Source: Puffinus mauretanicus
Lineage: Eukaryota; Chordata; Aves; Procellariiformes; Procellariidae
Length of the DNA: 64,000 bases
Assembly (NCBI GenBank): GCA_023333565.1
Contig: JAJKFH010000102.1
Coordinates: 3,100,001-3,164,000 of the forward strand
Direction: 5' to 3'
Position 1 is the first letter of the stretch. Each line of letters opens with the position of its first letter. The notes beneath the pieces were generated by a model. The model had not been told where the DNA came from and made no database searches. It worked only from the letters and a program-made list of their open reading frames with translations. The translations under genes and the position numbers were made by a program. Positions 1,241 through 42,475 of this stretch are shown one piece after another.

Positions 1241-4200
1241 ATGATTGAGATATGATTGGTACAGATTTTTAAATGTGAAAATTGCCACTATGAGCCAGCT
1301 GAAGGTAATGCTGTTATTCCTGAATGTATCACTAAAATCATGAACCAGTTTAAGTGAAGTGGCATTTTGGGTGTGGATTCAGGGTTTTTCAGAAGTCACA
1401 CCACACCAAAAGCAGGCATTCTTTTTTTGCTTTCACTGGTGGAAATCCAGATGCATGTGTTAAAACTCAGTTTACTCTGGATCTGTACTGAAATAAGCAA
1501 AGACAGAATATTGGTCCAGATGAGGATGCTTAAATCACAGCCCATATCTTCATTTCTCTTCTTTTCCTTCAGTTTATCCTCCCTTTGAAATCTTGGCCAC
1601 CCAATAAAGTTTCTGAATGCTGTGATCTGGAACATTCTCTTAAAACAATACCTGCAAAGTTATTTTAGATTGCTGATTCATTGCCATCCTTCCTAGGGTT
1701 TTTAGCTTTTCAATTCTTTCTGCAATGATTCTTGATGTTGGCAAGCCCAAGGCAGTAATAAAAAGAAGCAGCTAGTCTTTTGCTCAGTACTTGGTTGTCC
1801 TATATCCTCTGATTTCCCTCATGGCAGAACAAGCTACTGGTAAGGTACTCTGGTGCTCAGCGTGATCATTTATATCATGTTTCTTCTTCATGGAAGCTTG
1901 CTTATAAGAAGTGCTGGATGCGCTGTGTTGAAATGAAATTAATTTTCTTTCTAGAAGAAGATCGCCTAAACAGAAGCTTTTATCAGACTTCCCTCCTGAA
2001 AGAGCCCAGCTGTTAGCAAGAAGGAAGGGATGCATGCAGACTTCATACTCATGCAATGCTTGGCCTTTTTTATGCAGACTGTTAGTAGGGCTGCTCATTT
2101 ATAACAACTATGGTTGTTTTTCTGGTCAAGTAAAAAACTCAGGGTCATGTCTAAGGAAATCGTGTTCCACTGGCGCAAAGCATCATCAGGTGTCATGAGG
2201 TAGATTAGAAAAAATAAATTTGCAAATCTTTCCAGCCATTTAGCCCATGACTGTTATTGTAAAAAGACTAAAGATACTCAAAATACACATTCCATTGGGT
2301 TCTCTTTCCAAATCTGGAAAAACAAATAGTCTATCTAAAGCCTCTTTAATGGAAAATGATTCCGAAGGGAATAGAGAGCTTCTGGTTCTTTTCCAGTAAC
2401 TAAAAAGTTAGCATTGAAACAAGAAGTGCATATAAATATCTATTCAGCAAATACACTACACATTTATATAGTTAAGAGTGTAGAGGTTAAGAGTGTCCAG
2501 TTGGCACTGGGAATGCTCCAAGTTCTCCAGGCTTACAGTTTCATTATTGTGTTTGAAACCTTAGGGACAAATATAAGTGCTTATCAAATATTTGCATTTA
2601 TCCACCCTCTTGCAAATCACTTGCAAGAATGATATTTTAAAGATTTCCTTGAGCTTACTTGGTGGTTGTGGAAATTCTGTGGTCTGCCCTGCCCCATACC
2701 TACAAGTTTGGGGGTTTGCTTAGTTGTTACTTTTTAAATTTTCAAAATAATGCATTAGAAAAAGAAAAATAGTTAACACACCGGAACTAGGAGAGAAGCA
2801 ATCTCCTTACCACGTCCCCTACTGAAAAAGGTTTTTACAGAGTGGGGGTGGGGGGAGAAGTGGGCCTTGGAAGCTTTGTACATAAAATCAATGGTGGGAT
2901 ATATTCCAAGGTCAACAAAATATACTGTGGATCTACTTCTGTAACCCGTAACTCCCATAAACACTCCTTTCTGATATGAAAAGTACCACAGCTCCGGTGG
3001 GATTATTCGAATGAAATGGGTTAGCAGGGGAGGCTTGGCTCTTTCTGACAGTAGTTCTGTTCGGTAATCTTAAAGCAGATGGTCCCCCTGGAATTCAGAC
3101 GTGATTTTGGGAAACATGTATCAGACACGCTAGTCTTTCTTGAACAGTTATTATGATAACACACCAGAACTGGAAACCTCAGGAAAAAGTGAAATGAGGA
3201 GCAAAAGTAAAGGAGAGCTACTACTGGGAGATACTACAGCTGCTACTACTTATAATTCAGATAAAAAGCACAGATGATACCAGGATCGGGATGGTGGGGG
3301 GATAGTGAGCAGTGATGAAGATAAGGCAGCTGTACAGTGCAATCTGTATCACTCAATAAAGTGAGTCTATTCAGATAAATTGTTGTAATGCAGCCAAAAG
3401 CAAAATCATATATCCAGGAACAAGAAAAACAGAATGAGGGATTGTATCTTCTGTGTATGAACAATATAGAAGACTCTAATAAAAATCAAATCTCGATACC
3501 TCCTTGGGGAGAGATATTGGCTACTAACAGGCTCTATGATTCTAGCAGAGAAAATCCTATCTAATAACTGGAATTTGAAGCCAGACAAGTAAATTAGAGA
3601 CACATTTTTACACTCAGGGTGATGAACCACTGGAAGAATAAGGTTTGGTTGATTCGTCATCTCTTGGTGCCATTAACAAAATGTGGCATCTGCTTTATGT
3701 TGCAGTGTCCCACAGATTTTTTTTTCTTTCTTTCAGTTCAGTAGAACCCTTAAGTGTGCTATGTAAAAACTGATTTTGGGGCTACATGTGCATTACGATC
3801 ATAAGTCCTGCCAGACAAGTCAGAATCTTTCTGATCGTGCCTGGAGCGTAAGTGTGCTGTAACAAGAGTGTTGAGCTTGTTTAATTAAAACCCCAATAGG
3901 AATACTTTCTTATAGTGGTTAATAAACTGCCATAGAGTCTGTCTGGAGGAGTTCTCACAGAAAAGTTGTCCAGAGACATCTGGAAAGACAAGAAACACAC
4001 AAAATTCAGTGCACGGAAGATAATGAGTTCTTACAGAAGAAACATGAGGGCTGATACTGGCCTACTGCAAAATGGGTTGGACGCCCTGTGCATTAGGGAA
4101 CCAGAGACTGGGAGTGATCAGCAAGGCACGCACTAGAGGCACCCACTGAATGGGTGCTTTCATGGAAGTTTTTGGACTGGAATTTATTGTAGGTTTAACT

Positions 4201-5559
4201 ATCACATTCATGACTCACTAACGTAAATTAGAGAAAGATAACATGATATAAGTGAGATGTGCTGCTCTGCTGCATCTCCAGAATGAAAGCAAACCATTTT
4301 AATAACTAATAATGATATAATCTCTAATTACAAAATGCTTCAGTAGACAGCACGTACCTCAGTGACATAATAGAACAAGAAAATGTTATTTAATGCTTAC
4401 TTTAATATCTACAGCTTATACAGAATTGAACGGACTTTGAGCTATCTGTGCCTTTCATATTAATTTTGCTTTTCGAGTTTTAGGAATAAAGTATTACTAT
4501 CTTGCACTGTGTATTTATCACTAGACTCAGTTAGTGACTGCTGATTAACAGCTCTATAGCACAATGTGGGCATGACTTAAAAACCAGAAAAACAAAACCC
4601 ATTCCTTTTAGGATCTTTATATACAGCCTAACTTTTCTGCAGAAATCAGGGCGGATGCACTTTTTTGTAGGTTTTTTCATGTGTGATATGGTGAGGAGAT
4701 GGGGGGTAGATGGAAGGAAGACTAATTCTTCTGTGGCATTTATAATCCCAAATAATTGGGAAGGTTGCAAAGAAAAGCAGCTATTAAGGAGAATGAGCAA
4801 AGTTTGTGAGGTTTTGTGGTTTTTTTTTAAAGTTCACATTCATACTCCTGAGGAGGACTAAGAGAAAAGAAAAGTAAGAAATGGCAGTGGAATTTAGCAA
4901 GAGACTGTTGAATTTGGGAGGAAAGGTGAGGAAAAAATGAAGGTAGCATTGGAGCTGCAAGTTTGGGGAAAGAGGAAGGAAGGCAAAGCTGCCAGCAGTG
5001 ATAGAGAAGACAGAAACAAGAAAGATGGGTGCAGTTTTTAAAGAATCAGTCTGAAATAATGCTGTGTAAAAGAGGATAGAAAGGAACAAACAGAAGATGA
5101 ACAGGTGATTGGAATGACAGAGTCATGGAGCTGAGATCAGTGCCAGCTCTGGGCACTACCGGAGGTGACAAACTGTAACACAGCTTTTGAAGGCTGTTGT
5201 ATTTCCATTTAGGTGTGACTTTATTTAGTATGTTGTAGCTTATTAGTGGCAATTTTGTTAATTGCGGCACTGTTCCGTCTGGTGGAAAATATATTTTTCA
5301 TGTTTAGCAACGGACATTTCACATATCTGATGGTAAAAAGTGATTCTAAGTGGAAAAAACCGCATATTTTAATGGACCAAAAGCAAGTAATAACACTTTC
5401 TAGTCCTGGAAAAAAAAATAGTGCAAGACACTTTTATGATGTAGATGTGTGTTTTTATATAAATTCCCTGCCCTCTACTCCAAAAGCTTGTGATGATTAT
5501 ACACGCTATCTTCCTATTCATCATCAGTCTTTCAGGTTTGCGTCCTGTACTTTTCTGCA
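1241..5559. other. Unannotated non-coding sequence
   Basis: No gene or clear repeat is seen. Small items are a two-copy 15-base tandem at 2471-2500, a G-rich run at 2843-2863 that lacks a fourth G-tract, and a moderately purine-rich stretch at about 4855-5000. Open frames of up to about 126 codons look like chance. Confidence 0.55.
2471..2500. repeat. Two-copy 15-base tandem repeat
   Basis: GTTAAGAGTGTAGAG is followed directly by GTTAAGAGTGTCCAG. This is a small local duplication. Confidence 0.8.
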
Positions 5560-7200
5560 AACTCCAGTCGATTGCCATTGCATTATACCCGCATGCTTTG
5601 CAGGAGTGGAGGCAATCACTTTTTTTTAAAGTCCAGAACAGCCTTTGCCCAGTGGAGCGAGTCAATACTTGAATGTCAGAATTTCCTTTGGTATCAGCTA
5701 TCTGGTTATAACTTGGGTGTGGCATAGTGGGCTTGCATTGCAATATCATCTCCAGTTCCTACTTGATGATAGCTTGCATGCACGAGAAGTTGGAACAGAT
5801 AGGCTTTCAAATGAGAGGAGCTGGATATCATCAGTTTTGTCCTTATATGTCCTTAGCAAACAGAGCTGATCCTCTGTTCAGTGTTATCTGTTACTGCATG
5901 CTTGGTGGATGTAGGCGGCATTAAGACTTGCTGTTTTCTGTGACAGGTCTGGTTGTAGTTCCAGTGTTTTGTGCAAGCTCAGAAAAAATTTGTTGGTGAT
6001 AACACACTCTCTACAAAATGTTAGGGCTTCCAGTTTTTTCTTTCCTTGAAAAGCACTAAAAGGTGTACAGGCTAAAATACTTAATTGATCTCTGTGAATC
6101 TGGCCCAGGTCAGAAGGTGGATCTGCCATCACATGAGACTTCAGAAGTAAGTTTTCATCAAAGCGGTTTTTTGTTAGCTTGAGGCAGACGATCCCATGTG
6201 TAATGTAGAATTTGTCATCTTTGTATCTTTGGAATTTTTGCTTCCATTCTTTGCCCAAGAATTTGATGAGACTTGACTTCTCGATAGGACTCCGCAATCT
6301 ATTTTTAAATTGTTCTCTTGTGACTTGAAGCTATATTTTTAAATGAGTGCTTGTGTAGGCTTCTCTGTTGCATCTTTCATCACCTTTTCTTGATGTCTCC
6401 CTGTAAATGTCAGGCACTTCATTAGTTCTATAACTTCATGTACCTTCACGCAGGGCTGGTGACCCGGGATGTTCTACAAGTCTGCATATATCTTGTCAAC
6501 ACCAGTTGTGCTTTGGACCGGGCCTGCTCCTATGCAATGCAGACAGATGGCTGGGAATGATTTCAACAGGGCCCTCGTTCCATGGCATCCCTCTGCCTAA
6601 ACATGCCTTGTTTGTTTTGCCTGCTGTTGGATCTGACAGTGCCAGTGTCCCAGGAAGAAGGACAAGGGGAATACTAGCCCTCTGTGACCGTTAGTTGGGG
6701 AACACATTTCCAGAGAAGTTTCTGGCTGCTTCAAGTATGGTATGGTCTTGACATCTTTGCAAGACCCGTCACGCTGTTGAAACTTGCAATGTGTTCAGGC
6801 TTCTGTTTGGCCATCTTGCTGTAAAATGGCTGTTGATGAGGATTTTTACCAAGATGATTCATCTTGAATTCATTGTGTTTGTCCTCTGTGTGGTTTCAGT
6901 ACGCCATTGCACAATGATTGGCAGGACTACCTGAGCAGTAACAGTGTGATAAGATCCATCTGATCAGCACTGCTTGGGTTTATGTGGTCACCCTCAGCAT
7001 TTCACACAAAGCTTTGATGTCTCTGTGCTCTTTTTGAATCTTAGGTAGCTGCACGACTTTAACCAGTTATTACTCAGTTGTACTCTGTCAAATTCTCCTT
7101 GTTCTCTTCATGTATTGCCAAGCAATACGTATAATTTTGTTACCATCTTCCAGTTCATGTAGTGTGTCTGGGTCTATGTATTATATTGCGTTGTAGCATA
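5560..7200 (-). pseudogene. Decayed fossil of a multicopy animal ORF family
   Basis: On the minus strand, the three-frame translation gives a colinear series of protein-like blocks broken by stops and frameshifts. From N to C: HYMNWKMVTKLYVLL (about 7120-7165); EHRDIKALCEMLRVTT (about 6980-7030); PFYSKMAKQKPEHIASFNSV (about 6765-6825, another frame); EAARNFSGNV (about 6705-6735); KTNKA then PVEIIP (6604-6618, 6553-6570); PDIYRETSRK (6385-6414); IEKSSLIKFLGKEWK (about 6240-6285); DDKFYITHGIVCLKLT (about 6172-6219); DENLLLKSHVMAD (6121-6159); ILACTPFSAFQGKKKLEAL (about 6022-6078); IPKEILTFKY (about 5660-5690); and a short Cys-containing block, DCLHSCKACGY (about 5590-5625). From memory, the order and motifs match an uncharacterised multicopy ORF family of fish, reptiles and invertebrates, with KTNKA, E-x-IP, DVYRE(T/N)SIK, EEADTRLLLHA, H-x-x-TGCD-x-x-SAF and a Cys-rich tail. 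Frame changes occur near 6765 and 5640, with stops near 6330, 6435 and 6495. It is non-functional. Its element class is unknown to me. A processed pseudogene of a domesticated relative is an alternative. Confidence 0.7.
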
Positions 7201-8771
7201 TATTACAGATATATCATATTATATATCTTTCCAAGCTTTGTAGTCTGGAGGAAGCAGTATCGCGATGTGGATTAGTTGGTAGTTTGTTAGGTTGGGTGTA
7301 ATGAGTGGAGATTGATCATGTGAGGCATCTATCTTCCCTATAGATTGTCAGTCAGGTTTGGCAGTGTTGCCTTCAAGTTGAAGTAGTGGGCAAATATTTG
7401 CTGAACCTGGAGTGAGTGTGTGACACTGTGGTATCTCCCATTTTTAATGTACATTTAACTGTAAGGGGTGAAATGGAGAAAGTAGTACATGTAAAAGATA
7501 TGATTTCCCTCTGCTGTGGTGGTTTTCCATTCACATAGAAACTGTACTTGATGCAGACTGGAATTAAGCCTGGATTAAAATTTGGACACTAACTGCAGTC
7601 CACATGCTTGGAAAAAATAGAGAAATAAATTCCTTCTTGATAGCTGGTTTTTGCAGAAATGCCTTTTGGTTGAAGTACTACATGCATTTTACAAAGTTCA
7701 TGTACCTCTGCAGTTTATTTTAAGAGATCTGAATTTATTTGGTGTAGATTTATTTCAATTATCTAATCAGAAGCAGACACATAACTTCTTAGGCTGTCAA
7801 AGGTATTCAGGAATGTATGACAAACTTCAAAGGAATGCATAAGATCTTGCTACACATCTTACCATACATTTTTATAGAAAAGAGTTAATTAAATTTTCTT
7901 TCTGCCCAGAAATTACTTTTAGGCTAAATTAAGTATGTGGGGTTATAAGGCTTTTGAGTGTTCTCTTTTTCTGCTTCAGCTTTGTGTCTGATTAAACAGC
8001 CAAATGCTTATCTGGATCAAAGAAATAATAAGCAAAGGGGCATCCTTAGGCCAGTTATCTGTTGAAAACAATCTTAACTGTCACGTATCCAAGTTTTAAA
8101 GCACATAATCAACTGAATGGATTAAGCAATGGGGACTATGTGTAATACTGTTTACTTGCAATGAAGAAACTTCCAGGGGGAAGAAGTGCTGTTTCCTAGT
8201 GCATGTTTCTGCAGGCATGGGTTTGCTGGGGAACAAAAGGACCATACCCTCCTTGTGAGTCCTGCCTAGTGTGGCATGTGGTCCCAGTCAGATGAGAGAT
8301 GAGTTTCCTTGTTACAGTACGGGCTTCTTCCCTGCCTCCAAATTGGGAATGCAGGTTATTCTTGGGTTAATTCCTGTGGAGACTTAATTTATGTTCACTT
8401 GCTGGGAGGGAAGAAAAAAAAGAGCTCTAGTTATCTGAATATACAGCATTCAAGTGTGTTTGCAGGGACAATATTTCAAGTTATTAGTCTCAGCAATTTA
8501 GATAAGAACATGTACTTTCCTATGAAAGACAAGGCATAGTGTCTTAATATTAATACCTGACACAAAGTAACCCTCTGTGATAAAGTACCTAGATAGCTCA
8601 ACAAGGGGTGAATTAGAAATGCCTGGGAAAGATATATGATACCATTAGTAAAACATACAGATTTATGTGTGACATTAACATCTCTAAGGCGGCAGAAGCA
8701 GAATTGTACTACTAAAGCTGCATAAATGTTTTGCTTCCCCCAGATGCAACAACAAAGAGATCTCAGAGAAA
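7201..8771. other. Unannotated non-coding sequence
   Basis: No gene is seen. The fossil to the left could begin as far right as about 7440, where minus-strand reading gives YHSVTHSLQVQQIFAHYF, but I cannot tie that piece to the same family. The rest is featureless AT-rich DNA. Confidence 0.5.
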
Positions 8772-38400: not shown

Positions 38401-38707
38401 GAGCAGTTCCATGTAAGATGCTGAGTTGTTAAAAGTAATTGTTCTGATAGAAGCATTTTTATCTGGGTGCCATTAGAACTTATTCTTTAGAGCAAAACCT
38501 TGTTCATGTGCATTGTTCATAACCTCAACAGATGCAAATTGGAATACATAGGGCTAGTTTCCACAGAGAAGTTATTACCTAAGGAACTGTTGTACTTTTA
38601 TACTGTGGAAGGTAGTATGGTTGGTGTGTTTGCACACTGTATTTTTGTGCTACATATATTGCAGAATGTGTCAGTGTATAGTCATCACAAAACTCTATTG
38701 TAATTGC
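35465..38707. other. Unannotated non-coding sequence, partly rich in homeobox-type motifs
   Basis: No gene is seen. Around 37757-37800 and 38319-38460, core TAAT and GATTAA motifs are dense; see the separate entry. Confidence 0.5.
38319..38460. promoter_or_regulatory. Possible regulatory cluster of homeobox-type sites
   Basis: Within about 140 bases there are CTAATTGA, TTAATTGC, GATTAAG, ATAATTAG and GTAATTG cores, together with an E-box (CATATG at 38345-38350). Such clusters are typical of developmental enhancers, but AT-rich DNA produces these words by chance. Without conservation data this is only a suggestion. A similar smaller cluster is at 37757-37800. Confidence 0.2.
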
Positions 38708-39248
38708 AGAATCACAGAACAGCTGAGGTTGCAAGGGACCTCTGGAGATTTTGTAGTCCACCTCCGCCATGCTCAAAGCAGGGTCAGGTAGAGTAGGCTG
38801 CCCATGCTTGTGTCCAGTTGGGTTTTGAATACCTCTAAGGATGGAGACCCCCTGACCTCTCTTTGTTGAACTTCGTAAGGTTCCCCTTGGACCATTTCTT
38901 CAGCTTGTCAAGGTCCTTCTGAATAGCAGCACAACCATCTGGTGTATCAACCACTCCTTCCAATTTCATATTGTCTGCAAACTTGCTGAGGGTGGACTCT
39001 TCCATCATCCAGGTCATTAATGAAGATGTTACAAAGTATTGGTCCCAGCGTTGACTCTGGGGTACACCACTAGTGACTGGCCTCCCACTGGGTTTCATAA
39101 CACTGATCGCAACCCTCTGGCCCTGACAGTTCTTCTGGTTTTCAATCCATCTCTTTGTTTGTCTATGCAGATGTTATGCTATGAGACAAGTGTCAAAAGC
39201 CTTACTAAAGTTGCGATAAACAACATTCACTGCTCTCCTGATCTCAGA
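38708..39248 (-). mobile_element. CR1 LINE, antisense, with internal deletion
   Basis: The 3' end is at 38708, where the plus strand reads AGAATCACAGAACAGCTGAG, the reverse complement of the CR1 terminal motif. The 3' tail runs to about 38860. The sequence then jumps to the end of the reverse-transcriptase frame. The minus strand from about 39098 to 38863 reads SGVPQSQRWDQ..., STLSKFADNMKLEGVVDTPD, GCAAIQKDLDKLKKWSKGNL and TKFNK, plainly the CR1 RT palm and connection region. The catalytic F/YADD box has decayed to FADN. Several hundred bases of the expected ORF end and 3' UTR are missing between TKFNK and the tail. 5'-truncated, ending near an A13 run at 39256-39268. Inactive. Confidence 0.92.
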
Positions 39249-42448: not shown

Positions 42449-42475
42449 AAAAAAAAAAAAAAAAAAAAAAAAAAA
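42449..42475 (+). repeat. A27 homopolymer
   Basis: The longest homopolymer in the window, 27 uninterrupted A. No retroposed body is recognised upstream. Confidence 0.95.

Follow-up and report, generated by a model that had tools for sequence, protein, structure and literature searches.

A 64,000-nucleotide stretch of the Puffinus mauretanicus genome (contig JAJKFH010000102.1, positions 3,100,001 to 3,164,000; C78:3100001-3164000 of the 1.21-Gb assembly), here called the window, carries at 7054-5527 on its minus strand the decayed remains of an open reading frame (ORF) belonging to a multicopy animal family. The relic is likely to be a dead piece of an Academ-type DNA transposon of the nuclease-encoding lineage (AcademX), and to mark one of at least 21 places with remnants of an old multicopy invasion. 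As a dead transposon the relic is ordinary in kind and well supported; what is added here is the nuclease identity of the family and the set of remnants at 21 or more places.

The extent of the relic was established with a frameshift-tolerant profile aligner written for this analysis and run over the whole window, both strands included. Against a profile of 120 living members the alignment is colinear from column 29 to column 615 of 636, with 486 codons aligned (165 equal to the consensus), 20 frameshift steps, three in-frame stops and one large deletion, and it scores 187.1 bits. The next independent peak on either strand is 33.9; a peak of 60.9 at 3999 appears to be the tail of the relic's own alignment path. 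Dinucleotide shuffles (300) gave a mean of 22.5 (s.d. 3.4) and a maximum of 40.3, and the reversed sequence gave 24.7. When the 12 blocks of the profile were permuted (200 profiles) the mean was 59.0 and the maximum 93.1, therefore the order of the blocks itself makes up about two-thirds of the score. Taken singly, seven of the 12 blocks score above all 17 control stretches, and those seven are in order; for the remaining five, control stretches equal or exceed them. Such failures would suit a pattern produced by chance, or else an unrelated gene in decay; however, that explanation is refuted by the maxima from the shuffles, the rest of the window and the permuted profiles, and its probability is negligible.

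An earlier note, made by a model from the sequence alone, had proposed a fossil of a multicopy animal ORF family here, with blocks in an order hard to explain by chance. The family assignment was right, and the argument from block order holds against the permuted profiles. The check that it suggested, a frameshift-aware protein search with a family profile, returns a significant colinear alignment to a metazoan ORF family. All nine peptides that it spelled out lie in minus-strand frames in the order given, starting at 7027, 6829, 6618, 6570, 6414, 6270, 6213, 6150 and 6060. The span that it claimed, 5560-7200, does hold a relic, the real extent being 5527-7054; likewise, the short Cys-containing block at its end is present and reaches to 5527. 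The GH-x-NY start with which it opened is absent from all three minus-strand frames of 6900-7700, and the N-terminal piece of the profile scores 14.9 upstream of 7054, equalled or beaten by 21 of 51 controls, which leaves a GH-x-NY or NYARYL block unsupported.

Independent searches agree on the locus. A hidden Markov model (HMM) of P0122-P0241, run on the 2944 six-frame open frames of the window, found five colinear frames at the relic. Three of these have low E values: 5887-6330 (columns 284-345 and 432-479, E 1e-11), 6499-6690 (columns 163-204, E 0.0066) and 6334-6435 (columns 245-275, E 0.014). The other two, 6734-6895 (columns 87-123, E 2.1) and 6983-7066 (columns 29-49, E 5.5), are not significant alone, and an unrelated plus-strand frame at 8200-8292 reached E 1.3 in the same search. 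A single living member, P0124, matches the relic by tblastn at E 6e-21. A profile from the other, more distant subfamily (P0002-P0121) gave no significant target frame in the window (best E 3.7), a Pfam search with the window pieces alone matched no family, and a PDB search with the longest window piece gave no significant match.

The window copy is heavily damaged (Table 1). The deletion has removed much of the catalytic centre, DTDV motif included, and two of nine acidic residues are retained; in the VPDIYRETSRK block the second acidic residue is changed to N and the third is kept. The EEADTR and TGCD motifs are not intact either, and the copy is dead, therefore descent is claimed for it and not function.

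Two queries written to represent the family retrieved 2782 and 806 proteins at E <= 0.001; the best 120 of each were used, and alignment A1 took 80 of these 240. The living family is real and multicopy, and fish, hagfish, sea anemones and crabs still carry its genes as long open frames. Hosts named among the matches listed are hagfish, lamprey, several fish, sea anemone, sea cucumber, mussel, whelk, crabs, prawn and beetle, and the proteins among these matches are called hypothetical, uncharacterised or 'Tesmin/TSO1-like CXC domain-containing'. No relative turned up in a degenerate EEADTRLLLHA scan or in two protein-based scans of viral contigs, and phage records gave no match.

The predicted fold of the C-terminal half of a living member is like those of the FEN1/EXO1/XPG 5′-nucleases, and is held in common with the XRN 5′-nucleases as well; identity to the EXO1, FEN1 and XPG structure rows is about 10-14%. 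The conserved acidic residues of the living family presumably correspond in kind to those of FEN1. Pfam TCR, the CXC tail, is matched weakly in 15 of 80 living members. From the predicted structure, the family protein would be a FEN1/XPG-type nuclease with a CXC tail. The element that encodes it would be a terminal-inverted-repeat transposon, most likely Academ. Unlike FEN1, EXO1 and XPG, this nuclease belongs to a mobile-element protein that ends in a CXC tail, and few of its acidic residues survive in the relic.

The transposon context comes from two sequences, both of which look like animal transposon DNA and are probably mis-binned: L001 (1-6512), filed as a Planctomycetota metagenome-assembled genome, and L002 (1-3431), filed as a mussel gill symbiont genome. 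L001 holds one frame of 1466 residues that is open at its 5′ end and encodes the nuclease in its C-terminal part; its N-terminal half matches DUF6589 weakly (E 0.003, under Pfam's cut-off). In L002 the nuclease half is flanked by inverted ends with 116 of 160 aligned bases identical, and, with the boundary set by eye, TTA flanks the perfect outer repeat TAGTAGGGTGCCC on both sides. Given the inverted ends and the TTA on both sides, L002 is read as a DNA transposon of the terminal-inverted-repeat kind, probably with a target duplication of 3 bp.

Academ transposons carry an XPG nuclease and a Cys8 zinc finger and, to our knowledge, an XPG-like nuclease is confined to Academ among transposon superfamilies. 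According to PMC10045372, target duplications are of 3 or 4 bp in AcademX and of 9 or 10 bp in AcademH, apparently tied to the encoded nuclease or helicase. Bivalve Academ elements have a mean length of 5,565 bp as given in PMC10294476, a size that fits a protein of at least 1,466 residues. The family shares with AcademX the FEN1/XPG-like nuclease, the CXC tail and one long protein; the inverted repeats and probable 3-bp duplication of L002 may be a further likeness. Unlike AcademX elements, what survives in the window is a dead piece of the C-terminal half, with neither recognisable termini nor a transposase half. Academ is therefore the best label, chosen on the nuclease, the 3-bp duplication and one literature statement, and it is not proven. 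In living relatives, one long protein, encoded between terminal inverted repeats, would combine a transposase-side N-terminal half with the 5′-nuclease and a CXC tail at the C terminus. The transposase half would excise and insert the element, leaving 3-bp target duplications, while the CXC tail would bind DNA and the nuclease may trim flaps or ends.

Remnants of the family are present at at least 21 places in the host genome, the window included. The 148-residue frame of the window had no other match in the 1.21-Gb assembly at E <= 0.001, and P0124 gave 38 matches at E <= 10: the window itself, the 20 best other places, which were fetched, seven additional pieces within these 20, and 10 places with weaker matches (E 0.07 to 8.9), which stayed unfetched. 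All 20 fetched places score between 53.9 and 288.1, against up to 28.7 for reversed sequence and up to 39.2 for the opposite strand. Frameshifts or stops are present in 19 of the 20; in the other, L031, the match covers 32 codons only and has no lesion. The top-scoring relic, at 4099-5350 of L018 (C421:2265501-2275500), has nine frameshift steps and two stops. Nucleotide identity at shared codons, alignment error included, averages 46% over the 162 pairs that have 60 or more codons in common, with 67% for the best pair. Outside the relics, blastn between the same loci reaches 82-95% among the first 59 matches listed, taken as other repeats. The remnants read as those of an invasion that was old, diverse and multicopy.

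Joined into one query, the window pieces found a single protein, P0001, in a database of 5.8 billion proteins (E 2.8e-26). P0001 matches the window copy at 179 bits, against 38 bits for its match to the next of the fetched copies, and is itself degenerate, with a 215-residue open frame that runs through two off-frame stretches common to both. In the stretch 6551-6477, where the window frame has left that of the family, P0001 is identical to it at 17 of 25 residues; the stretches next to this one give 29 of 64, 30 of 41 and 22 of 33. In the second off-frame stretch, 6351-6316, P0001 is still similar to the window frame. These frameshifts are therefore older than the split between the two. Neutral simulation arrives at the amino-acid identity seen between the two sequences (63% of 166 pairs) when nucleotide divergence is about 20%. 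The avian neutral rate is near 2e-9 per site per year, which suggests that the window copy and P0001 split some 60 million years ago and that the element was dead before then.

The earlier note had left a choice between an old invasion and a lost domesticated gene. In favour of a nuclease gene once domesticated in birds or reptiles and later dead, the frame of P0001 stays open through the shared off-frame stretches, a pattern to be expected of compensated frameshifts in a gene whose frame was maintained for some time; a stop-free partner of this kind arises in only 2-8% of simulated neutral runs, and the window copy has no detectable transposase half. The openness of P0001 is biased as evidence, however, because its database entry depends on being an open frame. 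The minimum changes between it and the window copy are equal at codon positions 1 and 2 (34.7 and 39.0), the severity of mismatches is as under neutrality (12-25% of simulated runs reach it), and the region of the IIDG aspartate is lost in both. The difference between the two thus appears mostly neutral in pattern, by a test that is indirect, P0001 being known as a protein, and that lends domestication no support. With 20 further places in the host genome, 19 of them visibly broken, and the mostly neutral pattern against P0001, an old invasion is favoured and domestication is quite improbable.

A different doubt concerns the superfamily. The element could come from another group with terminal inverted repeats, Kolobok- or Zisupton-like or unnamed, as a nuclease is paired with a transposase elsewhere, for example in KolobokP, which has a His-Me finger endonuclease (PMC9587614), and the Academ label was set by description. 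A nuclease together with duplications of 3-4 bp is nonetheless how AcademX is described in PMC10045372, and another superfamily is unlikely. Several further observations, like this manner of labelling, weigh against a fragment of an Academ-type transposon. Inverted repeats are seen in one relative only, L002, in which the TTA duplication hinges on the boundary chosen and is weak evidence alone. The N-terminal half of L001 has no usable predicted fold (AlphaFold of residues 201-860, predicted local distance difference test score 34). Around the relic in the window there are no inverted repeats beyond short imperfect pairs, and no transposon termini are recognisable. No transposase half is detectable upstream of it in searches with L001 and an extended profile: pieces of the first 1000 residues of L001 match at scattered positions with scores of 24.7-32.2, against as much as 29.7 in controls, the extended profile aligns from the linker onward only, and transposase-half scores upstream are 22.2 and 29.1 against 27.2 and 27.6 for reversed controls. 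Among 18 copies (L031, L032 and L036 were left out) the transposase half is colinear just upstream of the nuclease in two. In L023 (C211:1698601-1708600) the traces lie directly upstream and score 46.6 against a reversed control of 19.3; those in L019 (C213:184701-194700) are weaker, at 34.1 and 42.6 against about 25.

The closest published parallel is a human Academ protein fossil of 152 bp at chr4:115,452,994, near NDST4, of amniote age and aligned to Academ-1_NV (PMC9004415, table 3). It is likewise a decayed protein-coding relic in an amniote, probably of the same named superfamily, and is much shorter than the relic described here. A bird-aimed literature search found no Academ fossil in a bird in titles and abstracts, with most subscription papers beyond its reach, so that absence is unproven. 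It is conceivable, at a very low probability, that the window copy represents, in birds, an Academ insertion predating crown birds, perhaps the amniote-age one near human NDST4, and has stayed recognisable for more than 100 (possibly 300) million years through co-option of part of it as non-coding regulatory DNA.

Table 1. Parts of the relic, in window coordinates, with the support for each. i-E, independent E value.
Feature	Coordinates	Strand	Support
Whole relic: linker, FEN1/XPG-like nuclease and CXC tail; probable broken C-terminal half of an Academ-type transposon protein	5527..7054	-	Profile alignment, 187.1 bits
Linker block with HRDIKALCEML, columns 29-49	6992..7054	-	Block 1-53 alone 19.2, control maximum 15.1
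Linker block with PFYSKMAKQK, columns 87-123	6731..6895	-	E 2.1, not significant alone; supported by colinearity
KTNKA block and start of nuclease; frameshift at 6532 destroys the IIDG aspartate codon	6496..6690	-	E 0.0066
VPDIYRETSRK block (family VFDVYREtSIK); stop codon at 6438	6334..6438	-	E 0.014
LIKFLGKEWK ... KFYITHGIVCLKLT block, best preserved part of the relic	6138..6315	-	Domain i-E 2.4e-8; block 266-318 46.1, control maximum 17.1
EEADTR remnant (reads HVMAD) and junction of the deletion that took DTDV and much of the catalytic centre	6074..6135	-	Profile alignment
ACTPFSAFQGKKKLEAL block (family TGCDtvsaFagkGKlkaL); GCD aspartate reads T	5925..6072	-	Domain i-E 0.0059
Degenerate Cys-rich CXC (tesmin/TSO1-like) tail	5527..5622	-	Profile alignment; last block alone does not beat controls

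Other features were noted in the window. One of the short imperfect inverted pairs, 23 nt long and 74% complementary, flanks the relic on both sides (5386-5408 with 7052-7074). At 38582-39173 on the minus strand there are two overlapping frames (SGVPQS... and STLSKFADNMKLEGVVDT...), which we take to be a decayed CR1 reverse transcriptase, a name that Pfam did not return. A CR1-like repeat agrees with a bird host, as does the assembly size of 1.21 Gb. A run of 27 A at 42449-42475 is possibly a retroelement tail.

A very common animal ORF family, labelled among the matches listed as uncharacterised, hypothetical or CXC-containing only, is thus given a structural identity, that of a predicted FEN1/XPG-type nuclease with a CXC tail. 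The DNA transposon type to which it probably belongs is documented at 21 or more places in one bird genome, as against the one short human fossil listed in PMC9004415. Dating the copies in birds and crocodilians, if feasible, would show when a transposon type still widespread in fish and invertebrates was lost.
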